Assembly: GCA_947500445.1 (NCBI GenBank)
Contig: CANMSB010000001.1
Location: forward strand, 310,001-374,000
DNA from: an uncultured Flavobacteriaceae bacterium
Lineage (GTDB): Bacteria > Bacteroidota > Bacteroidia > Flavobacteriales > Flavobacteriaceae
Direction of reading: 5' to 3'
DNA: 64,000 bases
The translations under genes were made by a program, and so were the position numbers. Below, one piece after another: positions 12,517 through 50,365 of the stretch. The notes below the pieces were generated by a model. It did not search any database, had not been told where the DNA came from, and was given only the letters and a program-made list of their open reading frames with translations. Position 1 is the stretch's first letter. The number at the start of each line of letters is the position of its first letter.

Positions 12517-12621
12517 TACTGTTGCAATACCATCAATTATTGTTTTGCCAGGAACAGCCAAAAAATAATTCAATGGCTATACCTACCATCTCAAAATTAA
12601 AATGGAACGGGTATAAAACCG

Positions 12622-29129: not shown

Positions 29130-29290
29130 ATACCATTTCTGTTCTTAAATTACCCATTAAAAATTGTTCTTTTCCGTGTATGCTTCAAAATAAAAGCTAA
29201 CCATAGCTATTGCTATGCTTGGATTTTCTTTTTCGCCTACCCAAAAAACCCCTGGTTTTTATTTAAGTAATTTAAGAACAGAAATGGTAT
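29130..29290. repeat. 161-bp element with perfect 24-bp inverted arms
   Basis: The arms 29130-29153 and 29267-29290 are exact reverse complements (left arm starts ATACCATTTCTGTTC). The interior has a smaller hairpin, CATAGC-TATT-GCTATG near 29203-29218, and no open frame. The tips ATACCATTT match those of the other copies in the window, but the rest of the arm is different. It looks like a MITE or REP-type element lying between glutaminyl cyclase and ffs. Confidence 0.75.
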
Positions 29291-29422
29291 AACGTAACTC
29301 CTTTTGTTTTTTCGATATGGCACGAGCGCAGACCGGGGCTATTCGATTGGGTAGAATCATAAAATTGACATTTTGATTGAATATTCTAGGTGGAATATTT
29401 TAAAATAGCATTTAAAAGATCG

Positions 29423-29430
29423 TATATTTG
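29423..29430 (+). promoter_or_regulatory. -7 promoter box of ffs
   Basis: TATATTTG matches the TAnnTTTG consensus; the predicted transcription start six bases later coincides with the first base of the SRP RNA. Confidence 0.6.
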
Positions 29431-29435
29431 CACTT

Positions 29436-29530
29436 GGCAAGTCCTACACGACCAGCTCCTGTAGAATCCCCCAGGGCGGGAACGCAGCAAGGGTATATGG
29501 TTGTAGCGGTGCGATGTAGGTAGCTTGCCT
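29436..29530 (+). ncRNA. ffs: signal recognition particle RNA (4.5S/SRP small type)
   Basis: The RNA of about 95 bases starts GGCAAGTCCTACACGACCAG and ends in GTAGCTTGCC, which pairs with the start. It contains the conserved apical loop core GGGCGGGAACGCAGCAAGGG (20 bases), the SRP54 binding region. A T tract follows directly (29530-29536), serving as terminator together with the closing stem. With Ffh it forms the signal recognition particle that targets membrane proteins. It is preceded by a good -7 box at the expected position. Confidence 0.93.
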
Positions 29531-29577
29531 TTTTTTGTGCCCTAAAGTGAAATTTTGGGTAGCCCTCTTCGGTGCTT

Positions 29578-29604
29578 ATACCATTTTAACTTTGAAATGG
29601 TATT
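29578..29604. repeat. short palindromic repeat (ATACCATTT family)
   Basis: ATACCATTT and AAATGGTAT are perfect 9-bp arms with the loop TAACTTTG between them. The loop equals the -7 box consensus (TAnnTTTG, 29587-29594) in the plus direction, 37 bases upstream of the SDR gene, but no TTG was found at the -33 distance. A full match to this core is repeated at 35727, 44893 and 50339 (with small changes). Confidence 0.75.
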
Positions 29605-29630
29605 AGGTTTTATTCTTATTTTACAAACAT

Positions 29631-30437
29631 ATGAGCGACAAAGTTGTATTGATTACAGGTGGTTCGAGCGGAATCGGTAAAGCGATCGGTAGCTATCTCA
29701 AACAAAAGGGATACCGGGTATACGGTACTACCAGGAGTATTTCGGCCCATCCGGATTTTAATGATTTTCCCTTATTAGAGTTGGATGTGCGTGAGCCAAA
29801 AAGCATACAAACGGCCATACACCGTTTGTTGGAAAAGGAGGGGCGGGTTGACGTGTTGATCAATAATGCCGGCGTCGGGATTACCGGACCTTTAGAAGAA
29901 ACACCGGAAAATGCCATTATGAACGCTTTCGACATTAATTTTCACGGCCCATTGCGGATGACAAAAGCGGTACTGCCGCAAATGAGAAAACAAAAGAACG
30001 GTTTGATCATCAACATTACTTCCATCGCAGGGTATATGGGGTTGCCCTACCGCGGGATCTATTCCGCCTCCAAAGGTGCCCTCGAACTTGTTTCGGAAGC
30101 CTTACGTATGGAGGTGCGATCGTTCGGAATTACCGTTGCGAACTTGGCTCCCGGCGATTATGCCACCAATATCGCCGCCGGCCGTTTTCACACCGCCGCT
30201 TCAAAAGATTCGCCTTACACGGCCTACGCGGATACTTTGAACGCACTGAACGATGATGTCGACCAAGGTGGAGATCCGATAGAGGTTGCAAAATCGATCC
30301 TCAAGATTATTGCGCACCCTTCCCCAAAAATTCATTACAAGGTGGGAGCATTTTTACAGAAAACTTCGGTTTCCCTAAAGCGGTTGTTGCCCCAGAAAGT
30401 GTTCGAGAAAATGTTATTAAAACATTATAAGTTGTAA
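29631..30437 (+). CDS. SDR family oxidoreductase
   Basis: This 268-residue short-chain dehydrogenase has the cofactor motif TGGSSGIGKA (residues 9-18), NNAG near 82, and the catalytic serine and YxxxK in ITSIAGYMGLPYRGIYSASKGAL (Tyr, Lys). The C-terminal part (LKRLLPQKVFEKMLLKHYKL) resembles members acting on retinol-like or fatty substrates. The reaction is not determined. It is a stand-alone gene, possibly read from the repeat-borne -7 box upstream, and followed by the transaldolase-family gene 86 bases later. Confidence 0.9.
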   Translation: MSDKVVLITGGSSGIGKAIGSYLKQKGYRVYGTTRSISAHPDFNDFPLLELDVREPKSIQTAIHRLLEKEGRVDVLINNAGVGITGPLEETPENAIMNAFDINFHGPLRMTKAVLPQMRKQKNGLIINITSIAGYMGLPYRGIYSASKGALELVSEALRMEVRSFGITVANLAPGDYATNIAAGRFHTAASKDSPYTAYADTLNALNDDVDQGGDPIEVAKSILKIIAHPSPKIHYKVGAFLQKTSVSLKRLLPQKVFEKMLLKHYKL

Positions 30438-30523
30438 TTTTGCCAAATCTTTAGAACGATCGTCCGGTGGTTGTCGGATGCTATTTGAGGACAAAATCAA
30501 TATCAACATAAATTAGGAAGGAA

Positions 30524-31177
30524 ATGAAATTTTTTATAGACACGGCAAATTTAGATCAAATCCGCGAAGCCCAGGCATTGGGTGTTTTGGACGGTGTGAC
30601 CACAAACCCATCGTTAATGGCCAAAGAAGGTATTGGCGGACGTAACAACATCCTAAAACATTATGTTGATATCTGTAACATTGTAGAAGGTGATGTATCT
30701 GCGGAAGTAATCGCCACAGATTTTGAAGCCATGGTCAAGGAAGGGGAGGAGCTTGCCGAACTGCACGACCAGATCGTAGTGAAAGTGCCGATGATCAAAG
30801 ATGGTGTAAAGGCATTAAAATATTTCTCCGACAAGGGTATACGTACCAATTGTACCTTGGTTTTTTCTGCGGGTCAGGCGCTATTGGCGGCAAAGGCGGG
30901 AGCAACTTACGTTTCTCCGTTTATCGGGCGATTGGACGACATTTCTACGGATGGGCTCAACCTTATCGCGGAGATTAGAATGATTTATGACAATTATGCT
31001 TTTGCCACCGAAATATTGGCGGCCTCCGTACGGCATACCATGCATGTTATCGATTGTGCCAAGTTGGGCGCCGATGTCATGACAGGGCCACTGTCCGCAA
31101 TAGAAGGTCTGTTAAAGCACCCGTTGACCGACATTGGTCTTGAGAAGTTTTTGGCCGACTATAAAAAGGATAATTAA
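30524..31177 (+). CDS. fructose-6-phosphate aldolase / transaldolase
   Basis: This 217-residue TalC/FSA family enzyme forms a decameric TIM barrel. The Schiff-base lysine is in [14 protein letters not shown] (about residue 86), and [29 protein letters not shown] is the N-terminal family motif. The short length distinguishes it from long transaldolases; it acts either as transaldolase in the pentose phosphate pathway or as F6P aldolase. It is preceded by an AGGAAGG ribosome-binding site 8 bases before the ATG, an uncommon feature in this phylum. Confidence 0.9.
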
Positions 31178-31205
31178 AGGCGACGTTTTTCGCTCAAAAT
31201 AAAAC

Positions 31206-31232
31206 AAAAGACCGCCCGTAGCGGTCTTTTTT
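31206..31232 (+). terminator. terminator after the transaldolase-family gene
   Basis: AAAAGACCGC, CCGTA, GCGGTCTTTT forms a strong hairpin with A and T flanks, 28 bases after the stop codon. It may also serve the opposite direction, where a lipoprotein gene ends near 31332. Confidence 0.85.
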
Positions 31233-31331
31233 TATGCCGGTATTGCTATAAACGATTTTCTTTACTATTGTTTGTTACCGTAAGACTGTTTCGTTGTTCT
31301 TGACGCGTACGGATGTTGTTCGGTATGGGGT

Positions 31332-32714
31332 CTAAAATTCGGAATAGATGTTCGCAAAAGCATCGACAATTTTTGCGTCCTCGGTAATAACGCATTTATT
31401 GGGCGGATAAATAATCAATGATTTCGTAAGCTCTTCAAAATCATCGGCCCTAAACTGTAAGCTTTTATCTAGGCCCGATCGTTCTACCATGGCCTTCCAA
31501 GTTGGCTCATTGGTTTTCATATTGATTCCAACGTATCGTAAGCGAGGGTGTTCTTCGCTCAATTTTGTTATCCTGGCCTTAATATTGTTAAAATGTCTTT
31601 TTTCCGAACCGGACCAAAAATAAAAAACGGTTTTCCCCTTTTCGGAAATTTCACGAAGTGAAATGGTGTCACCATCCATGCTCGATACATAAAGCTCGGG
31701 TATGAACTTATTGGGTTGAATGTTTTCAATACCGTGGTACAGATTGTCAATTTCCTCCAGATGCTTATTGTTCTGTGACAGTTCGTGAAACTCCTCGATA
31801 AATTTTCGATTGTTTTCCTCCGTGTCGTGTACCTTCAAAAGATAATCGAAAGCAACATAACGGTAAAGGTTGTCCTTTAGCTCCTTAGCGGTGACCAAAC
31901 TGTCGATCATTCGCATTTTGTGCTGGTTAAAGTGCAGTTGGTCCCTCACAATAGCTTCGTTCACGGCACATTTTTCGGAACAATCCATATAGGCCCGGTT
32001 TTGAATGTGATGTTGCATGAAATTGTAATAGGGACGCAGGTACACCAGCTTTTCATCACCGTAATCAAGCGATTTGCGATAACTATAAAACCCTTTTGGC
32101 AAGCTTTCCATTACGCCCTGATGGGCCAACTGTTTATGTTTGAAAGGATACTTCTCCATAAACGTATTGTAGGTGTACGAAATGCTGGCCAATGCAATGG
32201 CTTCTTCTTCCCCGGATACTTCACCATCACTTTTCAAGTCCCCAAGCATGTCCATCTTCGACTTTTTAAGGGAATCGATTTTGAGTGAAAAGGCTCCCGC
32301 CTCCAGGGTATAATATGCGTTGATCAAAGGAGCTTCGGCTTCTTTGGCCAAAAACACTTCTAACAGAAAGCTGCTGATCTCGCTACCTTTCCCGGAAAAT
32401 GCCAAAGATTCGTCAAAATCAATGGTGTTCAATCGAATTGTAATGCTATCGCCGGGCTCCAAATAAATGTACTGCAGTTCGGGCGAATGGTTGAAGTGAT
32501 ATAGCCCCGTGGGCAACGAGTCAAAGTTGAAGGCAAAGCGGTTGGTGGCATCAAGTTGAGCAGAGTCGATGACCCGGTCTCCTTTTAGTAATACCACATG
32601 TTTACTGGTCGGATTGACGATTTCACCGGCAAAATGTACCTTCGAGGAATTCAACGCTCCTTCACCGCAACCCATTACTACTAAAACGAGGGGATATAGT
32701 AATTTTTTTATCAT
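31332..32714 (-). CDS. TlpA-like lipoprotein lacking the CxxC site
   Basis: This 460-residue protein starts at ATG 32714 with a lipoprotein signal (VVMGCGEG). Residues 30-120 look like the beta-sandwich domain often found before thioredoxin domains in Bacteroidota (FAGEIVNPTSKHVVLLKGD), followed by helices and a C-terminal thioredoxin-like domain with the expected ISLREISEKGKTVFYFWSGS and VGINMKTNE segments. The position of the WCxxC active site is WSGSEKRHF, with no cysteine. It is therefore unlikely to be a classic disulfide reductase. It is divergent from the ABC-F gene. Confidence 0.8.
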   Translation of the reverse strand: MIKKLLYPLVLVVMGCGEGALNSSKVHFAGEIVNPTSKHVVLLKGDRVIDSAQLDATNRFAFNFDSLPTGLYHFNHSPELQYIYLEPGDSITIRLNTIDFDESLAFSGKGSEISSFLLEVFLAKEAEAPLINAYYTLEAGAFSLKIDSLKKSKMDMLGDLKSDGEVSGEEEAIALASISYTYNTFMEKYPFKHKQLAHQGVMESLPKGFYSYRKSLDYGDEKLVYLRPYYNFMQHHIQNRAYMDCSEKCAVNEAIVRDQLHFNQHKMRMIDSLVTAKELKDNLYRYVAFDYLLKVHDTEENNRKFIEEFHELSQNNKHLEEIDNLYHGIENIQPNKFIPELYVSSMDGDTISLREISEKGKTVFYFWSGSEKRHFNNIKARITKLSEEHPRLRYVGINMKTNEPTWKAMVERSGLDKSLQFRADDFEELTKSLIIYPPNKCVITEDAKIVDAFANIYSEF

Positions 32715-32833
32715 AAAACTAGCGCTACGCAAGGTAAAAGTAAGCAAGGCATTGGGCCTTTGCTGTTAATAGGGCGTTAAATATTAGGGGTTTGGCCCTT
32801 GCTTTTCGTCAAGAGACATGCAATCAACGTTTA

Positions 32834-32865
32834 TTGGCCGACGGAACTTATTTTGCGTATTTTTG
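32834..32865 (+). promoter_or_regulatory. promoter of the ABC-F gene
   Basis: TTG at 32834-32836 and TATTTTTG at 32858-32865 are separated by 21 bp, a full match to the Bacteroidota vegetative promoter. The predicted start lies about 18 bases before the ATG at 32889. Confidence 0.7.
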
Positions 32866-32888
32866 CACGAAATTTTAAAACAGTAGTT

Positions 32889-34517
32889 ATGTTGTCGGTT
32901 TCCAATCTATCGGTCCAATTTGGTAAAAGAGTATTGTTCGATGAAGTGAACGTATCGTTTACGCAAGGCAATTGTTATGGGGTTATCGGTGCGAACGGCG
33001 CTGGCAAATCGACATTTTTGCGAATTTTGTCGGGTCAAATAGAGCCCACCTCCGGGCATGTGCATCTTGAACCGGGAAAAAGAATGTCCATTTTGGAACA
33101 GGACCACAACGCATATGATACGGCCACGGTTTTGGAGACCGTTGTTATGGGAAATACCCCTCTTTTTAAAATAAAGCAGGAAATCGATGCGCTGTATGCC
33201 GATTACACCGACGAAAATGCCGACAAAATAGGGGAACTACAAGTACAGTTCGAGGAAATGAACGGTTGGAACGCCGATAGTGATGCGGCGGCGCTACTGT
33301 CCAATTTGGGCATCAACGAAACCTTGCATTATACTACAATGGGCGAAATGGACTCCAAGTTAAAGGTTAGGGTACTCTTGGCACAGGCGTTGTTCGGAAA
33401 TCCGGATGTTTTGATCATGGACGAACCTACCAACGACCTGGATTACGATACCATAAGTTGGTTGGAGCATTTTATCGGTGGATACGAAAATACAGTTATC
33501 GTAGTGTCCCACGACCGTCACTTCCTAGATTCCGTATGTACCCACATCGGCGATATCGATTTTGGTAAACTCAATTTATATAGTGGTAACTATACGTTTT
33601 GGTACGAGAGCAGCCAGTTGGCAGCGCGGCAAAGAGCACAACAGAATAAAAAGGCCGAGGAAAAGGCAAAGGAACTACAGGAGTTTATCATGCGTTTTAG
33701 CGCTAACGTCGCAAAAAGCAAACAGGCTACGAGCCGAAAAAAAATGCTTTCCAAATTAAAGGTCGAGGACATCAAACCGTCCAGTCGAAGATACCCCGCC
33801 ATTATTTTTGATCGGGAGCGTGAGGCAGGCGATCAAATACTGAACATTAATGATCTTTCCGCTTCTTCCGAGGATGGTGAGGTATTGTTCAAAGGGTTAA
33901 ACCTGAATTTGGCAAAAGGGGACAAGGTTGCGGTTATTTCAAAGGATTCGCGGGCTACTACCGCATTTTACGAAATTGTAAACGGAAGGAAACGCGCGGA
34001 TAACGGTGATTTGCAATGGGGCATCACTACTTCACAATCCTACCTTCCCGCGGACAATTCCTCATATTTTAACCAAGCGGTAAGTTTGGTCGACTGGTTA
34101 CGCCAATGGGCAAAAACCGAAGAAGAGCGCGAGGAGGTATACCTAAGGGGATTTTTGGGTAAAATGTTGTTCAGCGGAGAGGAAGCCCTTAAAAAATGTA
34201 CCGTGCTGTCCGGTGGTGAAAAAGTAAGGTGTATGCTCAGTAGAATGATGATGTTGCGTGCCAATGTATTAATGTTGGACGAGCCTACGAATCACTTGGA
34301 CCTGGAAAGCATTACCGCTTTTAATAATTCATTGAAGAATTTCAAGGGAACGGTATTGTTTACTACCCATGATCACGAATTTGCGCAAACCGTAGCCGAT
34401 CGTATCATTGAACTGACCCCAAAAGGCAATATTGATCGTCATTTGACGTTCGATGAATACATGTCCGATAAGGGCATTAAGGAATTGCGAGCTAAAATGT
34501 ACGCGGTTCCGGTATAG
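32889..34517 (+). CDS. ABC-F family ATPase
   Basis: This 542-residue protein has two ABC domains joined by a linker of about 80 residues rich in K, Q and E, and no membrane segments, as in ribosome-associated ABC-F proteins. Domain 1 has Walker A GANGAGKST (near 36) and Walker B VLIMDEPTNDLD, but its signature is TMGEMDSKLKVR instead of LSGG. Domain 2 has the signature LSGGEKVR and MLDEPTNHLD, but its Walker A is SKDSRATTAF without GKS/T. Thus one composite ATP site is intact and the other degenerate. The role is in translation or ribosome rescue, by family. The start at 32889 fits the promoter. Confidence 0.9.
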   Translation: MLSVSNLSVQFGKRVLFDEVNVSFTQGNCYGVIGANGAGKSTFLRILSGQIEPTSGHVHLEPGKRMSILEQDHNAYDTATVLETVVMGNTPLFKIKQEIDALYADYTDENADKIGELQVQFEEMNGWNADSDAAALLSNLGINETLHYTTMGEMDSKLKVRVLLAQALFGNPDVLIMDEPTNDLDYDTISWLEHFIGGYENTVIVVSHDRHFLDSVCTHIGDIDFGKLNLYSGNYTFWYESSQLAARQRAQQNKKAEEKAKELQEFIMRFSANVAKSKQATSRKKMLSKLKVEDIKPSSRRYPAIIFDREREAGDQILNINDLSASSEDGEVLFKGLNLNLAKGDKVAVISKDSRATTAFYEIVNGRKRADNGDLQWGITTSQSYLPADNSSYFNQAVSLVDWLRQWAKTEEEREEVYLRGFLGKMLFSGEEALKKCTVLSGGEKVRCMLSRMMMLRANVLMLDEPTNHLDLESITAFNNSLKNFKGTVLFTTHDHEFAQTVADRIIELTPKGNIDRHLTFDEYMSDKGIKELRAKMYAVPV

Positions 34518-34545
34518 TACCAGTAAAAACCCAAATACTTACATT

Positions 34546-35682
34546 ATGCGTACCTACACTTTTTGCGGCCTCTTTTTGGCGGTATTTGCCCTTGTTTCCT
34601 GTAGTAGTTCTGAAAATGGTTTGGATACCCCGGGCGATGGACCCACAGTGGGAGCAGCGGTCGATTACACCTTATTGATGGACAGTGGAAATACGATTAC
34701 CAGTAAATCGTTGAACGCCAATGGTGAGGTAATTACCATGAATCCCACAGCTGCCCCATTTGGAACAACGGACCAACCAGATTTTACCTATAGGGACGGA
34801 AACGTAATTTCCTTTTACAATACTACAGGACCCTGTGGTGGTGCTTACACCAAATACGATTTTAGTACCGATGCGGCACAGGACGCCACCATTTTTGAAG
34901 ATTTGGGAGATTGTGGTCTCACGGCACTTGGTATCGCACATAGCGATGATGCCGTGTATATCGGCTATGGAGTAGTGGAGAACGACACGGAAACCAACTA
35001 TTTTATCCGGGCCATACCTACAGGCGATCAAGGTGGTGACCCTGTCGATATTCCCATGGTCCAGAAACCGGAACATTTGGTATTCGCCAATAATCGTTTG
35101 TTTGTATTGACATCCGATTTGGTAACGGTAAATGAAAACAAGCTTTATGTTATGGATGCGGCGACCAATACCTTTATCATTGAAATGAATTTGGGCACCG
35201 ATGCGCGGCGGTTGATCAAAGATGCCAATAATGATGTAATCGTTTCCTATGATACCTTACATACCATAATGAACAGTCAAACGCTTTCTCAAGAAACCGT
35301 AAGGTACCGGGAGGACTTGCCTACGGAGTTCGCCGCTTCCGATTTTCACACTTTTGACAGTTCTGGCAGCCTTTACTACATTATGCCCCCGGGTGATAAT
35401 GCCGCTTATTCCTTTTTACCGGCAATCTATAATTTCAGTTCCAATTTGATCGTCCTGTACGACTTTGAGCAGTTTCTCTCTGATCAAAAACGAAATTTGG
35501 AATACGAAATAGAAACGGCCACCGCCGTTACTTATGATGAAGGAAACAACTTTTTGGTAATCGGGTACAAAAAAATAGGTTCGCAAAAAGGTGGCATACT
35601 GCGTGTATTTATCGGAGAACAGCCGGCCGTAATCGATAATCTGGATGTCGATGGCATTCCATACGCCATACTGGAAAAATAG
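34546..35682 (+). CDS. uncharacterised lipoprotein
   Basis: This protein (378 residues from ATG 34546) has the lipoprotein signal FALVSCSSSENG. The rest is beta-rich with several short repeats like IHTIMNSQTL and IVLYDFEQFL, likely a propeller or sandwich domain on the outer membrane. No enzyme motif was recognised. It begins 29 bases after the ABC-F gene on the same strand, so they may be one transcript. An upstream in-frame ATG at 34453 lies inside the ABC-F gene and is rejected. Confidence 0.75.
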   Translation: MRTYTFCGLFLAVFALVSCSSSENGLDTPGDGPTVGAAVDYTLLMDSGNTITSKSLNANGEVITMNPTAAPFGTTDQPDFTYRDGNVISFYNTTGPCGGAYTKYDFSTDAAQDATIFEDLGDCGLTALGIAHSDDAVYIGYGVVENDTETNYFIRAIPTGDQGGDPVDIPMVQKPEHLVFANNRLFVLTSDLVTVNENKLYVMDAATNTFIIEMNLGTDARRLIKDANNDVIVSYDTLHTIMNSQTLSQETVRYREDLPTEFAASDFHTFDSSGSLYYIMPPGDNAAYSFLPAIYNFSSNLIVLYDFEQFLSDQKRNLEYEIETATAVTYDEGNNFLVIGYKKIGSQKGGILRVFIGEQPAVIDNLDVDGIPYAILEK

Positions 35683-36008
35683 TACCAGAGCAAGCATAGC
35701 AATAACAATAGCTTCGTCTGCACAAGTAATACCATTTTAACTTTGAAATAGCGTTAATGAATCATTTCTTTTCAACTGTTCTTGGTTAAAAAGGCTGTTA
35801 CTAGTCAAGCTGGGGACAGGAATTTTAACTTGAATACCTAAAAAACAATTGCATTGTCGTACTTGCTATTTCAAAGTTAAAATGGTATTAAATAGTTTCA
35901 TAAAACGAATTTGGAAAATGCACCGGCATACAAACAACTTCAATTCTCCAACATCGGTACCATAAAAGTATTATCTTGTAGGTCTTCGCTTAAAAACCAG
36001 CCAAGCCC
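35683..36008. other. intergenic region with a long inverted-repeat element
   Basis: These 326 bases hold no gene. Almost half is the repeat element at 35727-35891. The rest up to the permease start contains no clear promoter box. Confidence 0.5.
35727..35891. repeat. 165-bp element with 26-bp inverted arms (ATACCATTT family)
   Basis: The arms 35727-35752 and 35866-35891 are perfect reverse complements, starting TAATACCATTTTAACTTTGA. TAACTTTG occurs in the left arm on the plus strand (35738-35745) and in the right arm on the minus strand (35873-35880), both pointing inward. The 113-bp interior is not similar to that of the copy at 29130. No open frame fits. It looks like a paired form of the short repeat at 29578. 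Confidence 0.8.
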
Positions 36009-37727: not shown

Positions 37728-37728
37728 C

Positions 37729-40353: not shown

Positions 40354-40401
40354 TTCTTTTTCTTTAGCATTGTAAAGTTAACAAATAGTCACCGCATTTG
40401 A

Positions 40402-40473
40402 AATACCATGTTGAACTTACATGTTAAGATAAGGTTAATTTCTTTGAATGGCACTTTCTTTTAACATGGTATT
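40402..40473. repeat. 72-bp element with 11-bp inverted ends (ATACCAT tips)
   Basis: AATACCATGTT at 40402-40412 and AACATGGTATT at 40463-40473 are perfect reverse complements. It shares the AATACCAT tip with the other copies but not the TTTTAACTTTG core. It lies between two divergent genes. Confidence 0.55.
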
Positions 40474-40541
40474 CCGGCAAACCAGTGTATCTTACCGACG
40501 AAATCGGCGTTTTATCTGTTTCCGTTCCCAAATATTATCAA

Positions 40542-41093: not shown

Positions 41094-41100
41094 AGGTTTG

Positions 41101-43530
41101 TCAACGAAGTTCGGCCTGTAGTTCTTTTTCAAACCGCGTCTGTAGTTTCTTCATAATTTTATCGATCTGCTTGTCCGTCAAGGTTTTTTGTTCGTCCTGT
41201 AAGGTAAAGCTCAAGGCATAGGATTTTTTTCCCTTCGGCAACTTATCTCCCATGTACACGTCAAAAAGACTGACATCCTTCAACAGTTTTTTTTCGGTTT
41301 GCAGCGCTAGTTGATATAGATCGTTAAAAGCAACGGAATCGTCCAATAAAAGGGCAAAGTCACGTTTTACGGCGGGATATTTTGGAATTTCTTGATAAAC
41401 AATGGCTTTCGCCCCGGCCAATTTGAGTACCTCGTCCCAATCGATATCGGCAAATATCGTCTCTTGGGCGATGCCAAATTTATCGAGGACCGATTTTTGA
41501 ACCAGACCTATTTCGGCCAAGTTTCGCTTGTTCGAGGTCAAGGTTATGCCCTCGGAATAAAGAGGCTGATCCACTGGTATAGGCCGTATGTCATTGATTC
41601 CCAATCGCTGCAATACATTTTCGATCATACCGCGTACATAGAAGAAATCCGATTTTTGGGTTGCACCGGTCCAGCTGTCCCGTTCTCGATTTCCTGTAGC
41701 CAACAGCACCAGATGTTTGCGTTCCGCTCTCCTTTCTGCAGTAAATTGGTGATAGGTCTGTCCAAACTCGAACAGCCTAAGGTGCTGTCTTTTTCTATTG
41801 ATATTATGGGAAACCGCTTCCAAGGCACCGAACAACATCGACTGTCGCATTACCGATAGGTCGTTGCTCAAGGGGTTCAGCATTGTTATCGCTTGTGCCT
41901 TCGCCGCTTCTGATATATGTTCGTGGTATTTTGTACTGGTGAGACTGTTGGTCATGATTTCGTAAAAACCGGAAGCGGCCAATAGTTCACCAATTATCCG
42001 TTGCAGCTTGTAATCTTCCAATTTGGAAGTAGGGGCAATGGAGGCGTTCAATTTTTCGGTAAAGGCAATATTGTTATAGCCATAAATGCGCAAAATCTCC
42101 TCTATCACATCAACTTCGCGCTGCACATCTACCCTATAGGAGGGAATGGAGAGTCCAAGCCCTGTTTCGGTCACATTTTTTACCTGTATTTCCAAGGAAG
42201 CCAAAATGGATTTTATGGTGTCTTTTGGAATCTCCTGGCCAATCAGGCTATGCACTTTTTTGAACGTTAGAAATACTTGATGGTCATCCGCTCTTTTAGG
42301 ATATAGATCGATAATATCGGACGAAATGGTGCCGCCGGCAATTTCCGTAATTAAAAGTGAGGCACGCTTGAGGGCGTATTCCACCTGTTCGATATCGATA
42401 CCCCGTTCAAAACGGAAAGAGGCATCCGTATTGAGGCCATGGCGTTTTGCCGTCTTTCGAATGGAAACCGGATCAAAATAGGCACTCTCCAGAAAAATCG
42501 AAGTGGTCCCCTCGGTAACTCCTGTATTGATACCTCCGAAAACACCGGCGATACACATTGGTTTTTCACCATCGCAAATCATAAGGTCGTCCTCGTGGAG
42601 TTCCCTCTGTTCCCCGTCCAAAGTCATGAATTTTGTTCCCGCCTTCACGGTCTTCACAACAATCTTTTTATCGAAGATGCGGTCGGCATCAAAGGCGTGT
42701 AGCGGTTGTCCCAGTTCGTGCAGCACGTAATTGGTGACATCAACGACATTGTTTTTGGGCGTTAGGCCAATGGCCCTTAAGCGATGCTGTAACCAATCCG
42801 GTGAAGCTTTCACCGTTAGGTTACTTATAGAAAGGCCACAGTACCGCGGTGCCAGCGCACTATCCGCTACTTGCACCTCAATTCTTAGGGATCGATCGTC
42901 CACATTGAACTGGCTTACCGATGGTGTGATCAGCTCTATTTGCAGGTCCTGTTGTTTTAGGCCGGCCCTTAGGTCCCTAGCAACACCGAAATGGCTCATT
43001 GCATCCGCCCTGTTTGGGGTAAGGCCAATTTCAAATACCTCGTCCTGAACGATCTCAAAAATGGTGGAACAAGGGGTGCCAGGTACCAACGAAGGGTCCA
43101 GGACCATAATGCCATCATGACCCTTGCCCAAGCCCAATTCATCTTCGGCACAGATCATTCCGTAACTCTCTTCGCCTCTTATTTTCCCCTTGCGAATGGT
43201 CCATGGCTTGCCATCGGCGTCATAAAGTTCCGTACCCACAGTGGCTACCGGCACTTTCTGTCCTTCTGCTACATTGGGCGCACCGCAGACAATTTGTAGG
43301 GGCATTGCCTCACCAATATCGACGGTCGTGAGTTTGAGCCGATCGGCATTAGGGTGTTTTTTACATGTCAACACATGTCCTACAACTACGCCTTTCAAGC
43401 TGCCCTTTACCGATTCAAAGGCAGTTATCCCCTCTACTTCCAGACCAATATCCGTTAGCAGTTCTCCCGTTTTTTGGGATTCCCAGTCCAGGTTTAAAAA
43501 TTGTTTGAGCCAGTTGTAAGAGATGTTCAT
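41101..43530 (-). CDS. pheT: phenylalanine--tRNA ligase beta subunit
   Basis: PheT (809 residues) is the large subunit of the tetrameric phenylalanyl-tRNA synthetase. The EMAP-II-like tRNA-binding domain (about 40-150, VGHVLTCKKHPNADRLKLTTVD), B3/B4 editing domain (GVFGGINTGVTEGTTSIFLESAYFDP), B5 domain (YRVDVQREVDVIEEILRIYGYNNI) and the C-terminal ferredoxin-fold anticodon-binding domain (LFDVYMGDKLPKGKKSYALSFTL) occur in the normal order. The pheS gene is not adjacent, which is common in this phylum. Confidence 0.97.
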   Translation of the reverse strand: MNISYNWLKQFLNLDWESQKTGELLTDIGLEVEGITAFESVKGSLKGVVVGHVLTCKKHPNADRLKLTTVDIGEAMPLQIVCGAPNVAEGQKVPVATVGTELYDADGKPWTIRKGKIRGEESYGMICAEDELGLGKGHDGIMVLDPSLVPGTPCSTIFEIVQDEVFEIGLTPNRADAMSHFGVARDLRAGLKQQDLQIELITPSVSQFNVDDRSLRIEVQVADSALAPRYCGLSISNLTVKASPDWLQHRLRAIGLTPKNNVVDVTNYVLHELGQPLHAFDADRIFDKKIVVKTVKAGTKFMTLDGEQRELHEDDLMICDGEKPMCIAGVFGGINTGVTEGTTSIFLESAYFDPVSIRKTAKRHGLNTDASFRFERGIDIEQVEYALKRASLLITEIAGGTISSDIIDLYPKRADDHQVFLTFKKVHSLIGQEIPKDTIKSILASLEIQVKNVTETGLGLSIPSYRVDVQREVDVIEEILRIYGYNNIAFTEKLNASIAPTSKLEDYKLQRIIGELLAASGFYEIMTNSLTSTKYHEHISEAAKAQAITMLNPLSNDLSVMRQSMLFGALEAVSHNINRKRQHLRLFEFGQTYHQFTAERRAERKHLVLLATGNRERDSWTGATQKSDFFYVRGMIENVLQRLGINDIRPIPVDQPLYSEGITLTSNKRNLAEIGLVQKSVLDKFGIAQETIFADIDWDEVLKLAGAKAIVYQEIPKYPAVKRDFALLLDDSVAFNDLYQLALQTEKKLLKDVSLFDVYMGDKLPKGKKSYALSFTLQDEQKTLTDKQIDKIMKKLQTRFEKELQAELR

Positions 43531-43590
43531 CGGTCGGTTTTAAAAAGCGTAAAGATAAAACAATGCCCCTAGACATTCAATAGCGATTCT

Positions 43591-43622
43591 TTGGAATTGA
43601 TTTATTTTTTAGCGTAGGTTTG
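43591..43622 (+). promoter_or_regulatory. promoter of the TlpA-like gene
   Basis: TTG at 43591-43593 and TAGGTTTG at 43615-43622 are separated by exactly 21 bp, a full match to the -33/-7 promoter type. The predicted start is about 35 bases before the ATG at 43662. Confidence 0.65.
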
Positions 43623-43661
43623 CCATCAATAATCGCCCCGATAGGGTTTAAGCTTAAAGAC

Positions 43662-44885
43662 ATGAAAAATCTCTTCGTTTTTGTGGTGGCATTTATACTG
43701 CTTTCGGGATGTGAACGCCAAAAGACTGCCGTACCAAAAGATGGGATTTGGCGCGCAGCTTTAAAGATTACGGACGGGCAGACGCTTCCTTTCAATTTTG
43801 CATGGACCACATCGGAAAATGGGGGGTATGCGTTGCAAATTTTCAACGGTACGGAAACCATTATTGTCGACGAAATTGAGATTACCAACGATTCCATTTT
43901 GATTAGGGCCCCTGTTTTTGAGGGGTATTTGGCAGGTACGTTTACCGAAACGGCAATGCAAGGGGCTTTTATCAAAGAAAGTTTGGACCGTGTGGTACCT
44001 TTTACCGCCGTATATGGCGAACCTACCCGTTTTAATGAGACCAAAGCCCATAACACGAATGTTTCCGGGATATGGGAAACCGTATTTAGCGGAGGTACGG
44101 AAGATGAATATTTGGGAAAGGGTATTTTTTCCCAGAAGGGAAATCAGGTAACCGGTACGTTCAGAACAACTACCGGCGATTACCGTTATTTGGAAGGGAT
44201 GGTTAACGGCGATTCCCTAAAACTATCGGCATTCGACGGTGCACACGCCTTTTTATTTGCGGCCCGGGCCACGGATAGTACCTTGGAAGGAACCTTTTTT
44301 TCGGGAAATCATTTTCAAGAGCCTTTTTTGGCAAGGCGTAACCCACAGTTTGAACTTCCCAATGCCGATTCGCTTACCTTTTTGAAACCGGGTTATGATC
44401 GGTTCCACTTTGCCTTTCCGGATGCCAACGGTACAATAGTAAGCTTGGATGACGACCGTTTTAAAGGTAAGGTGGTATTGGTACAAATTATGGGTACTTG
44501 GTGCCCTAATTGTTTGGACGAAACCAAATTTTATGTTGACTATTTAAAACGGAACCAAGAAGAGAATCTAGAAATAGTTGGGTTGGCGTTCGAATATGCC
44601 AAGACCGAGACCGGCGCTTTTAAAAGTATTGAAAGGTTAAAGGAGCGTATTGGAGTGGAGTATCCCATTGTTTTAGCACAATATGATACTTCCGACAAGC
44701 AAAAAGCTCAGGAAAAGCTGCCTATGCTGAACCATGTACTATCCTATCCAACTACGATATTCATCGACAAAAAAGGGGAAGTCCGAAAAATACATACCGG
44801 TTTTAACGGTCCTGCAACCGGAGAAAAATATCTTGAATTTAAAAGTACTTTTGAAGCTTTTGTTCAAAATCTTTTGAACGAATAA
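43662..44885 (+). CDS. TlpA family thioredoxin-like lipoprotein
   Basis: This 407-residue protein (ATG 43662) has a lipoprotein signal (LLSGCERQ). After an N-terminal beta domain, the C-terminal half (about 270-400) is a redoxin domain with the active site MGTWCPNCLDE and the cis-proline region NHVLSYPTTIFIDKKGE, so it is likely a periplasmic disulfide or peroxide-type reductase. It differs from the TlpA-like protein at 31332, which has no CxxC. An upstream in-frame start (43620) is rejected because the promoter places the transcription start after it. Confidence 0.88.
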   Translation: MKNLFVFVVAFILLSGCERQKTAVPKDGIWRAALKITDGQTLPFNFAWTTSENGGYALQIFNGTETIIVDEIEITNDSILIRAPVFEGYLAGTFTETAMQGAFIKESLDRVVPFTAVYGEPTRFNETKAHNTNVSGIWETVFSGGTEDEYLGKGIFSQKGNQVTGTFRTTTGDYRYLEGMVNGDSLKLSAFDGAHAFLFAARATDSTLEGTFFSGNHFQEPFLARRNPQFELPNADSLTFLKPGYDRFHFAFPDANGTIVSLDDDRFKGKVVLVQIMGTWCPNCLDETKFYVDYLKRNQEENLEIVGLAFEYAKTETGAFKSIERLKERIGVEYPIVLAQYDTSDKQKAQEKLPMLNHVLSYPTTIFIDKKGEVRKIHTGFNGPATGEKYLEFKSTFEAFVQNLLNE

Positions 44886-44892
44886 AGGTATT

Positions 44893-44919
44893 ACACCATT
44901 TTAACTTTGAAATGGTATT
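44893..44919. repeat. short palindromic repeat at the leuB stop codon
   Basis: ACACCATTT, TAACTTTG, AAATGGTAT with a following T is a near-perfect copy of the 29578 repeat (one changed base in an arm). It lies between the convergent TlpA-like gene and leuB, and the final TT of the copy (44918-44919) forms part of the leuB stop codon (TTA, 44918-44920). It may act as a bidirectional hairpin terminator. Confidence 0.75.
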
Positions 44920-46036
44920 AAATAATGGTGGATTTTCCCAAGCCGATGTTTTCGTCGTTCATATTCATATCGTCATCAATATCGGTGATATGGTCGGCGA
45001 TAAAGTCGCCCACATAGTTCGTTCCATATTTGCTGCTACCGAGAATATCGGGTGTTACAATTTTCTTTTTGAACGATTTTCGTACGGAAGCGATGACCGC
45101 CCGTGATTCTTCCTTCAAGCCAAAATGGGACAACAGTAGGGACGCACTGAAAATAGAAGCAACCGGATTGGCCTTGTTCAGTCCTTTTGCCTGGGGGTAA
45201 GACCCATGTACCGGTTCGAACATACAATGGTACTCTCCAATGGAAGCCGATGGAAGCAGTCCTTGCGACCCAATGATGACACTGCCCTGATCGGACAGTA
45301 CATCGCCGAACATGTTACTGGTCAAAATGATATCGAATGCCGTTGGATTTAACAAGAGTTGCACCGCCGCATTATCTATATACAGGCATTCCAAGGTTAC
45401 CTCCGGATAACTTTCCGATATCGTCATGACCACTTTTCGCCATAGGCGCGAGGTTTCAAGAACGTTCGCCTTGTCGACCAAAGTTACTTTCTTTCGTCTT
45501 TTTTTAGCGGCTTTAAATGCTTTGTGGGCAATTCTACTGATTTCCTTTTCGGAATACGAACATTGATCGGTGGCTAGCGTACCGTTGTTTTCCAGTTTTT
45601 TTTCGCCATAGTAAATACCTCCCGAGAGTTCCCTGTAAATCTCAAAATCGGTACCGGCCACCATTTTTTTGCTCAATGGGGAGTTTTTGATAATTTCAGG
45701 AAACATCATTACGGGCCTGACGTTCGCAAAAAGGCCAAGTTCTTTTCGGAGCTGTAATAGCCCTTGTTCAGGGCGAATACTCAACGAAGGGGAATTGTCA
45801 TACTCCGGAGTACCGATAGTGCCAAAGAGCGAGGCATCGGAATCGGCACACACTTCCAAGGTTTTTTTGGGTAGTGGAGTACCGTACTTATCAATGGCAA
45901 TGGCGCCAATGGGCACTTTTTCGAAGGTAAAATTATGATTGAAGGTCTCCGCGACCGCCTGTAGGCACTTCACCGACTCGGCCAGTACTTCCGGCCCAAT
46001 TCCGTCACCACCCAAAAGTGCTATTTTCAATTGCAT
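44918..46036 (-). CDS. leuB: 3-isopropylmalate dehydrogenase
   Basis: LeuB (372 residues) catalyses the NAD-dependent oxidative decarboxylation of 3-isopropylmalate in leucine synthesis. GGDGIGPEV at the N-terminus, RELSGGIYYGEK, LVDKANVLETSRLWRKVV and ILTSNMFGDVLSDQGSVIIGSQGLLPSASIGE with FEPVHGSYPQAKG are the conserved segments for substrate, metal and NAD binding. It starts immediately after the leuA stop (TAA-ATG junction). Its stop codon lies in the repeat at 44893-44919. Confidence 0.96.
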   Translation of the reverse strand: MQLKIALLGGDGIGPEVLAESVKCLQAVAETFNHNFTFEKVPIGAIAIDKYGTPLPKKTLEVCADSDASLFGTIGTPEYDNSPSLSIRPEQGLLQLRKELGLFANVRPVMMFPEIIKNSPLSKKMVAGTDFEIYRELSGGIYYGEKKLENNGTLATDQCSYSEKEISRIAHKAFKAAKKRRKKVTLVDKANVLETSRLWRKVVMTISESYPEVTLECLYIDNAAVQLLLNPTAFDIILTSNMFGDVLSDQGSVIIGSQGLLPSASIGEYHCMFEPVHGSYPQAKGLNKANPVASIFSASLLLSHFGLKEESRAVIASVRKSFKKKIVTPDILGSSKYGTNYVGDFIADHITDIDDDMNMNDENIGLGKSTII

Positions 46037-47209
46037 TTACAAAACACTTTCAATGTTCAGGTCCGTCGCCGTTATGATGTCATGGATATCGGTATCCAAA
46101 ATTTCCTTTTTGTTGTCGGCAAACTTTAAAAATTCTTGATAGACTTCATCAAGTTGGAGCTTCGTAAGTTCGTATCCTACCAATTTTGCGCGATAGGCCA
46201 AAGCCGCCCTTCCGCTTCTTGCGGTCAGTACTATGGACGATTCGTTAACGCCTACATCGGCAGGGTCGATAATTTCGTAGGTTTCCCTGTTTTTGATGAC
46301 CCCGTCCTGGTGGATTCCCGAACTATGTGCAAAGGCATTTGCACCAACGATGGCCTTATTGGGCTGTACTATCATTCCCATTTTTTGTGAGACCATCTGG
46401 CTTGTATCATAGAGCAGCTTGCTGTTGATATCGGTATCAAGCCCTAAGGTAGGGTGCTGCCTTAAGATCATCACTACTTCCTCCAAAGAGGTATTTCCGG
46501 CCCGTTCCCCGATTCCGTTAATGGTGCACTCAATTTGTCGGGCCCCGTTGGCCACACCGGCAATGGAATTTGCGGTAGCAAGTCCCAGGTCGTTATGGCA
46601 GTGGCAGGATAGCGTGGCTTTATGGATACCGGTAACGTTTTCCTTTAAGTATTTTATTTTCAATCCGTATTCTTCGGGAAGGCAATAACCGGTGGTGTCG
46701 GGGATATTCAACACTGTTGCACCCGCTTTTACCACGGCCTCGCACACTTTTGCCAAAAATACATTGTCCGTTCGTCCGGCATCTTCCGCATAAAACTCCA
46801 CATCTTCCACAAAGGTTTTGGCATAACTGACCGCAGCTACGGCCCGCTCGATAATTTTATCCCTTGTGCTGTTGAACTTGTACTGAATATGTGAATCGGA
46901 AGTACCTATACCCGTATGTATTCTTGCCCTTTTTGCAGGCTTCAGGGCATCGGCGGCAACCGTTATATCATTTTGGACGGCCCTTGTCAGTCCGCAGACC
47001 GTTGCATTTTTCACCAATTTTGCAATTTCGTGGACCGAATTGAAATCACCGGGACTTGAAATGGGGAATCCCGCCTCGATGATATCAACGCCCAACTCAT
47101 CCAATCGTTCGGCGATCACCAATTTCTGTTCGGCGTCTAACTTGCATCCGGGGACCTGCTCGCCGTCCCGTAAGGTGGTGTCAAAAATATCTACCTTATC
47201 TTTACTCAT
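46037..47209 (-). CDS. leuA: 2-isopropylmalate synthase, short form
   Basis: LeuA (390 residues) condenses 2-oxoisovalerate with acetyl-CoA, the first step of leucine synthesis. The HMGL-like barrel is complete: [55 protein letters not shown] and [15 protein letters not shown]. The C-terminal leucine-feedback domain of the usual ~510-residue enzyme is missing, as in many Bacteroidota. A -7-like box TATATTCG lies near 47237-47244 on this strand, with a short leader and no leader peptide. LeuC and LeuD are not in the window. Confidence 0.93.
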
Positions 47210-47355
47210 TATATTTGTGTAGTTTAGGTACCCTCTACGAATATAGCGCGACGGGTTGGACCCACCGAAATTACGAAAAAATAGTTACAACGTTAAATTG
47301 GTTTGGTCGCAATTTAATAATTTGAATTTCAAGTTTTTAACTGTTATTTATTACG

Positions 47356-48900
47356 ATGACAACTGTACATAAAGATGCCCTTTTCGTGTTGGTAAAGTCC
47401 TTGTCCAAGTCTGAGAAGCGGCAATTTAAACTATACGTCGGCAGGCTGGGGGTAAATACCGATGCTAAATTTTTAGCGCTTTTTAATTTGCTCGATAAAA
47501 TTAAGAAGTACGACGAAAAAAGTATTTTGGACAGTGGGATCGTAAAAAAAACCCAGCTCTCCAATTTAAAGGCACACCTTTACAAGCAAATCCTGGTCAG
47601 TCTTCGGCTCAATCCCGGGAATCAGAATATTCGTGTCCAGATTCGCGAGCAACTGGATTTTGCGACCATATTGTACCAAAAAGGACTGTACAAACAGAGT
47701 TTAAAGTTGTTGGACAAGGCGAAGGCCATTGCAATCGAAAATGAAGAGAAAAACATTGCCTATGAAATTGTAGAGCTGGAGAAAATTATTGAAACCCAAT
47801 ACATTACCCGAAGTATCCCGGACAGGGCAAACGAGCTTGCCGTACAGGCCAAGAACCTTTCTGCCATGAACGTGATGACAAGTAAGTTGTCCAACTTGTC
47901 CTTGCAGCTGTATGGTATCATGCTAAAGATCGGTTATGTCCAAAGTGACGCCGATTTTAAAAGGATAAAGCATTACTTTGAGGAACACTTGCCAAAATAT
48001 GATCTAAAAGAACTCGGTTTTCGGGAGAAATTATGGTTGTACAAGGCGCACCTCTGGTACAGTTTTTTAATTCAGGATTTTGTGTCGTCGTATAAGTACG
48101 CCAGCAAATGGGTGGACCTTTTTTATGAGCAAAAGGAACAAATATTTCTAAATCCCGTCTTTTTTCTAAAGGGCAACCATTACCTTTTAGAATCGTTGTT
48201 CTATGTAAAATACAGTTCGCAGTTCCGACAAACATTGGAAAAATTAGAATCCGTTGTAGCCGGAAAGGACTTTCCCAAAAATGATAATATTACATCATTG
48301 GCCTTTCTATATCTCAATGCCAACAAATTGAATTTACACTTTCTGGAGGGCACCTTCCACAAAGGCCTTTATTTGGTGAAGATTGTCGAATTTGGAATAA
48401 ACAAGCATAAAGATCGCATTGATGCGCATCATATTATGGTGCTGTATTATAAAATTGCATGCCTGTATTTTGGGGATGGCGATCATAAGAATTGTATTGT
48501 CTATCTGAACAAGATCATCAACAACCGGAACTTAAAAATGCGGGAAGATCTGATGTGTTTTGCCCGCGTATTGAGCTTGTTTGCGCATTACGAAGCAGGA
48601 ATGGACTATCATTTGGAGGTACAATTGAAGAGTACCTACAAATTTTTATTAAAAATGAACGATCTGCATGAGGTCCAAAAAGAAATGATCAAGTTTTTAC
48701 GGAATCTTGGAAATATTTATCCGCACGAGTTGCAGGATGCCTTTCAAGAACTGCATGCCCGATTGAAGCTCTACGAAAACGATCCTTATGAAAAAAGGGC
48801 CTTTTTGTATCTGGATATCATTTCATGGCTCGAAAGTCATCTCGAAAACAAACCGGTGGCACAGATCATCAGGGAAAAGGCAATGGCCTATACACGTTGA
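47356..48900 (+). CDS. hypothetical helical-repeat protein
   Basis: This 514-residue protein has no signal peptide and no known domain. It is predicted to be almost fully alpha-helical with repeated pairs of helices such as QKGLYKQSLKLLDKAKAIAIE, suggesting TPR/HAT-like repeats and a scaffold role. It is conserved-looking among Bacteroidota by the general pattern, but I cannot name a family. The EamA gene begins 3 bases after its stop. Confidence 0.7.
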   Translation: MTTVHKDALFVLVKSLSKSEKRQFKLYVGRLGVNTDAKFLALFNLLDKIKKYDEKSILDSGIVKKTQLSNLKAHLYKQILVSLRLNPGNQNIRVQIREQLDFATILYQKGLYKQSLKLLDKAKAIAIENEEKNIAYEIVELEKIIETQYITRSIPDRANELAVQAKNLSAMNVMTSKLSNLSLQLYGIMLKIGYVQSDADFKRIKHYFEEHLPKYDLKELGFREKLWLYKAHLWYSFLIQDFVSSYKYASKWVDLFYEQKEQIFLNPVFFLKGNHYLLESLFYVKYSSQFRQTLEKLESVVAGKDFPKNDNITSLAFLYLNANKLNLHFLEGTFHKGLYLVKIVEFGINKHKDRIDAHHIMVLYYKIACLYFGDGDHKNCIVYLNKIINNRNLKMREDLMCFARVLSLFAHYEAGMDYHLEVQLKSTYKFLLKMNDLHEVQKEMIKFLRNLGNIYPHELQDAFQELHARLKLYENDPYEKRAFLYLDIISWLESHLENKPVAQIIREKAMAYTR

Positions 48901-48903
48901 CCT

Positions 48904-49767
48904 TTGAAGGTATTTACGCCCCATACCCGAAATTTTATCGAGCTCGGTCTGGTCATGCTATTAATGGGTACCTCCGGGCCTTTCGGAAAGTATATTACCC
49001 TTCCGGCACCACTGACCATAGCCATCCGTTCCATTCTGGCACTGGTATTTTTATATGCTTATTGCAGGTTCAAGGGCATTTCGTTTCGCCTTAGAAAAGC
49101 GGATATGGCTCCCATTTTCCTTTCCGGGCTGTTAATGGGCGTTCATTGGATCACCTATTTTGAGGCCTTGCAACTCTCCAATGTAGCCATTGGTATGCTG
49201 GCCTTATTTACCTATCCGGTGTTCACGGCCTTTTTGGAACCGGTTTTTTTAAAAACCCGTTTTCAAAAAATACATTTGTTCTTGGGGGCTTTGGTATTGA
49301 GCGGTGTTTATCTGTTGGCACCCGATATCGATTTTGGGAATTCGCATACCGTGGCGATAGCGTTCGGACTTTTTTCAGCGGTATGCTACGCTTTAAGGAA
49401 TTTGATCGTTAAAACTAAAGTCGGTAACTACCAGGGGTCGGTTTTAATGAGTTATCAGCTGTTATTGGTTTCGGTTTTATTGATTCCCACTTTTTTTATT
49501 TACGACCTAACCGAGGTGCCAGGGCAATGGACAGGGTTATTGGGAGTTGCCTTGGTGACTACGGCCTTGGGCCATACGCTATTGATCAATACATTTAAAC
49601 ACTTCTCGGTGACCACGATAAGTATCATTAGCAGTGTACAACCCATATACGGGATAGTAATCGGAGCTTTGTTCCTTTCCGAAATACCATCTTGGCCCAC
49701 GATTATCGGAGGTGTGTTGATTTTGGCATCCGTAGTCATCGAAAGTGTTCGCGCGTATCGCCGTTAA
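48904..49767 (+). CDS. EamA family transporter
   Basis: This 287-residue protein has ten predicted membrane segments in two EamA/DMT repeats (GTSGPFGKYITLPAPLTIAIR and MGVHWITYFEALQLSNVAI; FGLFSAVCYALRNLIV and TTALGHTLLINTFKHFSVTTISII). Members export or import metabolites such as amino acids. The start is TTG 48904, three bases after the upstream stop; no ATG near it fits. The substrate is unknown. Confidence 0.85.
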   Translation: MKVFTPHTRNFIELGLVMLLMGTSGPFGKYITLPAPLTIAIRSILALVFLYAYCRFKGISFRLRKADMAPIFLSGLLMGVHWITYFEALQLSNVAIGMLALFTYPVFTAFLEPVFLKTRFQKIHLFLGALVLSGVYLLAPDIDFGNSHTVAIAFGLFSAVCYALRNLIVKTKVGNYQGSVLMSYQLLLVSVLLIPTFFIYDLTEVPGQWTGLLGVALVTTALGHTLLINTFKHFSVTTISIISSVQPIYGIVIGALFLSEIPSWPTIIGGVLILASVVIESVRAYRR

Positions 49768-49784
49768 GTTGGAAGCGGTGTCGG

Positions 49785-50315
49785 TTATTGTTCCGGTGTT
49801 TTCGGGGAGGTATCCATATTCAGTTCCTGTACCAATCCTTGTCCCAACTTTTGAAATTCGTTCCGTTTTGCCATCGCCCGTACTTTTTCCGGGTCGAACC
49901 TTCCATTAAAATAGAGGAAAGAGCCTTTGGTAGCATTGTTATTATAAATCAATATTTCACGAACGGTATTGCCTTTTTCCCGAACTGATACCACGTTTCT
50001 TTTTAAGGCATCGTTTTTACGATACACTTCTATAAAATTGTTCCCTGTGATCGTATTCATCTGTTGGTTGAGAAAAGAAGTGCGTTCTGCGGTAGCACTG
50101 GGAAACTGCATGTAACGCAAATCCTTTGTAGTACCTATCATTTGTTCCATTTCGGGAGAAATAGTGCTTAAAAGACTAAGCATAAAACGGGGTACACGTA
50201 CTGCGGTTACCTGATCGTCGTTTTTATGCGCATTGTAAAACCGATCAATGGAATTGTAACTTCCGCAGGAGGCGAATACGGACAGGGCAAGTATTACCAG
50301 GTTTTTTCGAATCAT
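49785..50315 (-). CDS. DUF4252 family lipoprotein
   Basis: This 176-residue lipoprotein (MIRKNLVILALSVFASCGS) belongs to DUF4252, a Bacteroidota family of unknown function. The core (RFMLSLLSTISPEME, TKDLRYMQFPSATAERTSFLNQQMN) is conserved. The start is placed at ATG 50315 rather than TTG 50321. A TAACTTTG box, which is part of a palindromic repeat, lies 33 bases upstream (50348-50355) with TTG at 19-bp spacing, giving a near-ideal promoter. Confidence 0.85.
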   Translation of the reverse strand: MIRKNLVILALSVFASCGSYNSIDRFYNAHKNDDQVTAVRVPRFMLSLLSTISPEMEQMIGTTKDLRYMQFPSATAERTSFLNQQMNTITGNNFIEVYRKNDALKRNVVSVREKGNTVREILIYNNNATKGSFLYFNGRFDPEKVRAMAKRNEFQKLGQGLVQELNMDTSPKTPEQ

Positions 50316-50338
50316 AAACAACTTGTTGTTAAGGGCTT

Positions 50339-50365
50339 ATATCATTTCAAAGTTAAAATGGCATT
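50339..50365. repeat. short palindromic repeat forming a promoter for the DUF4252 gene
   Basis: ATATCATTT, CAAAGTTA, AAATGGCAT is the repeat with two changed arm bases. On the minus strand the loop is TAACTTTG (50348-50355), and a TTTG lies 19 bp upstream (50375-50378), a full match to the -33/-7 consensus for the downstream DUF4252 gene. Confidence 0.7.

Follow-up and report, generated by a model that had tools for sequence, protein, structure and literature searches.

Short and long gene-less palindromes in an uncultured Flavobacteriaceae bacterium, probably two forms of one MITE-like mobile family

Introduction

Miniature inverted-repeat transposable elements (MITEs) occur in bacteria as ERIC, Correia/NEMIS and RUP, while TTA/TAA is the target of the Tourist MITEs and PIF/Harbinger elements and of the IS5 group. 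A conserved interior of fixed length over many genera is unusual for MITEs. Smaller mobile repeats of ∼21–27 bp are the small dispersed repeats (SDR) of Nostoc, for which we know of no large partner form. Here, we analyze a stretch of 64,000 nucleotides (the window) from an uncultured Flavobacteriaceae bacterium, whose whole genome (G000) amounts to 5.18 Mb in 177 contigs. The window contains copies of two palindromes, a short one of 26 bp (S) and a long one of 160–161 bp (L), both of them gene-less. We conclude that S and L are probably two sizes (∼26 and ∼162 bp) of one non-autonomous, MITE-like family of mobile palindromes, moved in trans by a transposase.

Bacterial MITEs, as exemplified by MITECca01 of Cardinium (PMC9769881), resemble S and L in being short and gene-less, with inverted ends, many intergenic copies and target repeats. 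S and L measure 26 and ∼160–186 bp, have no coding capacity and carry paired terminal inverted repeats; direct TTA/TAA triplets flank them more often than in shuffled controls, if imperfectly in many copies. Unlike bacterial MITEs, they have a 26-bp minimal form, covarying inner arms and an interior of near-fixed length across many genera, and no parent insertion sequence was found for them in 833 kb of the own genome or around 19 ends in G143 and G044, two better-assembled genomes. With the repetitive extragenic palindromes (REP), their paired forms (REPINs) and REP-associated tyrosine transposases (RAYT), as described in PMC3116915, PMC3733652 and PMC6006769, S and L share short and doublet intergenic palindromes, high copy number and a proposed trans-acting enzyme. 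In contrast to REP/REPIN elements, they lack a GTAG/CGTC tag, have no copies beside the Y1 transposase genes of their own genome, and carry direct TTA/TAA triplets. The S/L family thus behaves as a MITE would and bears some likeness to REPINs, although two defining REP/RAYT features, the tag and, in the own genome, a Y1 gene flanked by copies, were looked for here and found absent. The 3-bp duplication described for PIF/Harbinger (PMC2213677) is common to S/L, Tourist/PIF-Harbinger and the IS5 group, and neither a homologous transposase nor a homologous end sequence is shown here. The Nostoc SDR, named in PMC3116915, are like S in mobility and size, as far as their descriptions go. In the open-access literature, which leaves most subscription journals outside, no title or abstract start among the matches listed describes an S/L element.

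Results and Discussion

Shared ends of S and L

S is the 26-bp palindrome ATACCATTT-N8-AAATGGTAT, in which N8 is an eight-nucleotide loop; the version in the window is ATACCATTT-TAACTTTG-AAATGGTAT. Both S and L begin with ATACCATTT-N8-AAAT, and this, or a close variant, holds for most of the long copies that we read. Variant starts among the long copies are ATACCAATT, ATACCAGTT, ATACGATTT and AAACTATTT, and several copies are altered at both ends together. Within one L copy, the N8 of one end largely complements that of the other, but N8 varies from genome to genome. Mean pairwise identity, taken over 36 distinct aligned copies, reaches 92% in the tip and 68% in the interior, compared to 44% in N8. 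In the four genomes compared, S has a loop identical to the N8 found in an L of that genome: TAACTTTG in the own genome (L subfamily B), CTGCATTG in G044, CAACATTG in G143 and CTTATTTG in G146.

Copy number

The ATACCATTT tips have 58 matches at ≤1 mismatch in the window, compared to 28.9 expected, and none of 100 shuffles is as high. Genome-wide, the 26-mer S with loop TAACTTTG has 154 matches at ≤3 mismatches, compared to 0 for the reversed control, although some of the 154 belong to the termini of long copies; S-type palindromes with any 8-nt loop occupy 125 places at ≤2 mismatches (control 1). L subfamilies A and B have at least 40 distinct places each; these counts are lower bounds, because scoring covered 40 of the 125 candidates and 40 of the 202, respectively. 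A direct reading of 833 kb of the own genome gave 67 tip pairs through the filter, compared to 2, 1 and 0 for three scrambled tips. Forty-nine of these pairs span 26–27 bp (28 pairs), 160–163 bp (14) or 184–186 bp (7). Long copies, or what remains of them, enclose six tip pairs of 39 bp.

A single S copy at ≤2 mismatches is present in nine congeneric species taken together, and L has one match in G008 of this genus and none in G003. S and L have multiplied in this species, and the S copies may also mark recent divergence. The mobile or amplified family with complementing arms that was proposed in the first-pass annotation is supported by the copy number, the near-absence of S from congeners, the covariation, the direct triplets and the absences in G001 given below; its copies are not rare in the genome.

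Evidence for mobility

Flanking triplets were scored by taking the element as TACC...GGTA, with shuffled flank pairings as the control. Identical triplets flank 15 of 51 S copies in the own genome (shuffled mean 9.5) and 26 of 52 L copies (15.3), as well as 43 of 99 S copies of other organisms (22.4), a set that includes scattered single matches, some surely due to chance. Opposed triplets are scarce in the own genome, with 3/51 for S (shuffled 8.5) and 2/52 for L (14.4). Among 29 L copies from the family search (see below), direct TTA or TAA is found in 16 and an opposed pair in none. One subfamily A copy is nested in an A-like element with TAA on both sides (C17:84015–84337).

None of the three S copies in the window has a counterpart at the matching places of G001, a species of the same genus with the same gene order over most of the compared stretch. 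The gap at 44893 is clean, and those at 29578 and 50339 spread through diverged sequence; at the latter, the aligned G001 block is 27 bp shorter, equal to the length of the element plus the triplet. On predicted open reading frames (ORFs), 45 of 49 copies are intergenic, three overlap ORFs and one lies at an edge. Copy positions roughly track the intergenic space, and 10 of 26 S copies lie between convergent genes, gaps of this kind accounting for approximately one fifth of intergenic bases.

Conservation of the L hairpin across the family

An alignment of 15 long copies (A1) was converted into a model (R1). With the best nine candidates per genome scored, R1 has matches at E≤0.001 in 81 of 299 genomes of the family, the own genome among them. 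Palindromes scattered between genes can thereby be assigned to a single element, which has relatives in 70 of the 236 sampled genera. The R1 matches listed are mostly 160–164 bp long, with a few from 155 to 181 bp, and 29 of 30 returned L loci were readable, at 161–163 bp (locus L396, of 1,908 bases, was dropped as too short). Forms of 184–186 bp with extra apical sequence are present in the own genome and G146, and forms of 210–211 bp in G143. In some copies (L062; L315/L320), the apex is enlarged by ∼24 bp that are in part self-complementary and that differ in sequence between two genera.

A second alignment (A2) of 37 copies, 36 of them distinct, combines the 29 returned loci with eight of the 15 A1 rows; the other seven were left out, their genomes being already present. 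As 29 of its rows were found via R1, the end and apical helices of A2 lean to the R1 structure; the helices at columns 32–35/130–133, 50–56/108–114 and 60–62/103–105 are absent from R1. Changes on both sides are seen in 31 of 42 pairs of the A2 hairpin. Its cells are paired in 91.5% of cases, compared to 40–52% after one arm is slid by 1–3 columns. The covariation score is 0.317, compared to 0.095 for shuffles (0 of 500 as high), and 0.313 compared to 0.100 when the end helix is omitted. The slide control weighs more than the shuffles, because kinship alone can exceed shuffles without structure. With its conserved tips, fast-changing complementary 8-bp segment and covarying inner arms, L provides a natural experiment on the persistence of palindromes.

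Outside one constant G-T pair, the 1475 cells of A2 comprise 1327 Watson-Crick pairs (1089 when shuffled), 20 G-T (55), 56 A-C (84) and 72 other mismatches (247). Since A-C on the modelled strand is G-T on the opposite strand, wobble is more tolerated on the opposite strand. This asymmetry hints at a folded single strand, which could be DNA as well as RNA. The depletion of G-T pairs was considered as proof of a DNA rather than an RNA hairpin and dropped, as the A-C mismatches are relatively tolerated. The complementarity of the inner arms could be kept via a folded single strand, via a cruciform, or by using one arm to correct the other during replication.

Proposed mechanism and points against it

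We propose that a transposase acting in trans would recognize the tips, perhaps together with the genome-specific N8. It would cut a TWA target with a 3-base stagger, the element would be inserted, and the triplet would be doubled on repair. S probably originated when an L lost everything from the left-end AAAT to the right tip AAATGGTAT and, once formed, may have been moved on its own. Transposases of the IS5 group and of PIF/Harbinger typically leave a 3-bp TWA duplication, which serves here as a lead only. If one trans-acting enzyme moves both S and L, the family would parallel REPIN/RAYT with another chemistry.

Several observations weigh against this interpretation. In 833 kb of the own genome, in the fetched loci and around 19 ends in G143 and G044, no transposase gene was seen to lie between such ends. 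An identical triplet pair is lacking in the majority of S copies and in one half of the L copies, and opposed triplets are not depleted in the 99 S copies of other organisms (27, compared to 23.6 when shuffled). The empty-site evidence comes from the three S copies of the window; of its two L copies, one adjoins genes absent from G001 and the other lies in non-aligning sequence. Subfamily A, despite its abundance, has no S with its loop among the own-genome matches listed. R1 finds no L in 11 S-holding loci of two Methylococcales symbionts, which is at odds with S being no more than an offshoot of this L. Finally, as L is also present in a species of the same genus (the single G008 match), the reading of a burst rests on S.

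A more far-reaching proposal, which we regard as tentative, is that these palindromes form a separate class of hairpin mobile DNA. Such a class would comprise a palindrome of near-fixed length (∼162 bp), which has stayed able to fold in dozens of genera without an autonomous copy, and an independently moving 26-bp form (also in Methylococcales symbionts and a Saprospiraceae genome). Both would bear an 8-bp address that is specific to the genome and is recognized by a trans-acting enzyme dedicated to it. S would then be among the smallest independently mobile DNAs.

Moving enzyme and alternative explanations

It is unlikely that the family represents an ordinary MITE of a surviving insertion sequence, the full-length copies of which are collapsed in small contigs. 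The inverted ends and target triplets fit this explanation, and an insertion sequence with these ends could be present in G000 contigs of <3 kb, because the sequence searched came from contigs of ≥3 kb. However, 13 of 19 ends in G143 and G044 have their best partner at 162–163 or 210–211 bp; of the others, one has a partner at 162 bp as second choice and five pair weakly or at 33–75 or 151 bp. None of the three best partners of each end lies >400 bp away at ≤5/21 mismatches. An interior kept at fixed length across many genera is also unusual for MITEs. Alike ends 300–5000 bp apart, in the 833 kb of the own genome and in the fetched loci, are all neighbouring S or L copies, and inspection by eye of the ORFs in three stretches between or beside ends revealed no recognizable transposase. 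Transposase genes of the PF01609 family were inspected at 26 loci in three genomes (the own one, that of a Methylococcales symbiont and a Flavobacteriales metagenome-assembled genome, MAG) and showed no flanking pair; the best end pair >400 bp apart has 6/21 mismatches.

It is improbable that the element resembles REP/REPIN in its movement, with a Y1 (RAYT-type) transposase acting in trans on folded single-stranded DNA. Short intergenic palindromes in high copy number, conserved paired arms and the lack of any autonomous copy seen agree with it, and mismatches that are uneven between the strands (A-C 56/84, G-T 20/55, others 72/247) are as a folded single strand would give. A REP-type transposase gene was also what the first-pass annotation proposed to look for. 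Five Y1 transposase matches are present in the own genome, but their loci (3 kb each) have no alike tip pair around the gene, the best pair having 8/21 mismatches. No GTAG/CGTC tag is present at the foot of the palindromes, where the flanks of S and L are TTA/TAA. Moreover, Y1 transposition (IS200/IS605) is not known to make a target duplication, at variance with the direct triplets.

Less probable still is that the copies are a terminator or another conserved RNA structure that spread through duplication. The covariation of the whole hairpin would suit an RNA, as would the 56 of 1475 cells with G-U-type pairs on the strand opposite to the model and the somewhat frequent location of S between convergent genes (10/26). 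Against this, wobble is scarce on the modelled strand (20/1475 outside the one constant G-T pair), direct triplets are present, S is absent from orthologous places, and copy positions follow the intergenic space. In addition, Rfam at gathering scores has no match in the window except a small signal recognition particle (SRP) RNA. A weak match of Xist_exon1 over L (29172–29232; E 0.029, 20.5 of 50 bits) was taken as chance.

That a recombinase inserts the element as a single-stranded hairpin, as for integron attC sites, is very improbable given the excess of direct triplets, even with conserved paired arms, imperfect triplets and a related core that has quite different tips (ATCCCTAAC/GTTAGGGAT) in two Flavobacteriales MAGs.

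Copies in the window

The features of the window are listed in Table 1. Six intergenic spots had been assigned to one family in the first-pass annotation, three as compact hairpins with a common loop and three as longer forms with unrelated interiors. The compact hairpins all match the 26-mer with TAACTTTG, and two of the longer forms are genuine L copies, so that five of the spots stand. The sixth, at 40402, is ruled out as a member: G001 is colinear there without a gap, and the end motif and TTA/TAA repeats are absent. The interiors are not unrelated, since both L copies align over their full length with copies from other genera. Their R1 scores are 153 and 117 bits, both copies being part of the training set of R1. 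As inverted repeats, the regions 35727–35890 and 29130–29290 have arms of 26 and 24 nt, respectively, both at 100%, while 29575–29606 has 15-nt arms at 87% and 40402–40473 14-nt arms at 93%. The flanks of the L copy at 35729 are an opposed pair and form no direct repeat. A gene for a small SRP RNA (RF04183) lies at 29428–29534 (+), between L 29130 and S 29578.

Table 1. Members of the S/L family and other inverted repeats or remnants in the window.
Feature	Position	Strand	Remarks
L, subfamily A	29130..29290	+	161 bp; ends ATACCATTT-CTGTTCTT-AAAT
S, exact 26 bp (0 mismatches)	29578..29603	+	flanks TTA/TTA; absent at matching place in G001
L, subfamily B	35729..35888	+	160 bp; ends ATACCATTT-TAACTTTG-AAAT; flanks TAA and TTA
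S, 1 mismatch	44893..44918	+	flanks TTA/TTA; clean gap in G001
S, 2 mismatches	50339..50364	-	flanks TTA/TTA; absent in G001
Non-member inverted repeat, ATACCATGT tips	40402..40473	.	conserved intergenic DNA
Doubtful L remnant, weak match	12458..12608	+	nhmmer E 4.6e-4 (right half); R1 E 0.21

Related and neighbouring repeats

Among the matches listed, S-type palindromes that are exact but have other loops recur within the genomes of one Methylococcales sponge symbiont, one Saprospiraceae MAG and two Flavobacteriales MAGs, and scattered single S-type matches occur elsewhere. The end motif has 69 and 22 matches in the Methylococcales symbionts G403 and G405 (controls 1 and 0), 69 in the Saprospiraceae MAG G406 and 34 in the Flavobacteriales MAG G404 (controls 0 and 0). 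In two loci of G406 (JALZVN; L357 and L369), pairs of 244 and 186 bp have an N8 that is unlike at the two ends; these are perhaps another long subfamily. A search of plasmid and phage collections with one L copy (L383) gave no match at E 0.01, and the S pattern is present in six stretches of viral contigs.

An L-related core (nhmmer E down to 1e-15) with the very different tips ATCCCTAAC/GTTAGGGAT was observed in the Flavobacteriales MAGs JALTUD and JALWSJ, at loci L181, L166, L186, L151, L142, L132 and others, L166 consisting of two adjacent copies. A repeat of G333 that begins with ATACCATTTTCTATCGA, with many copies of ATACCATTTTCTATCGAAAAT (e.g. L308), was set aside as probably unrelated; the one copy read has the flank tacg, not TTA/TAA, and no partner end. 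A separate gene-less repeat of ∼210 bp with the ends GAACTCATTTAGAC is inserted in two subfamily A copies of the own genome (C6 ∼156043–156253 and C37 ∼4786–4994; loci L104 and L113). Its C37 copy has ATT on both sides, and it represents another MITE-like family.

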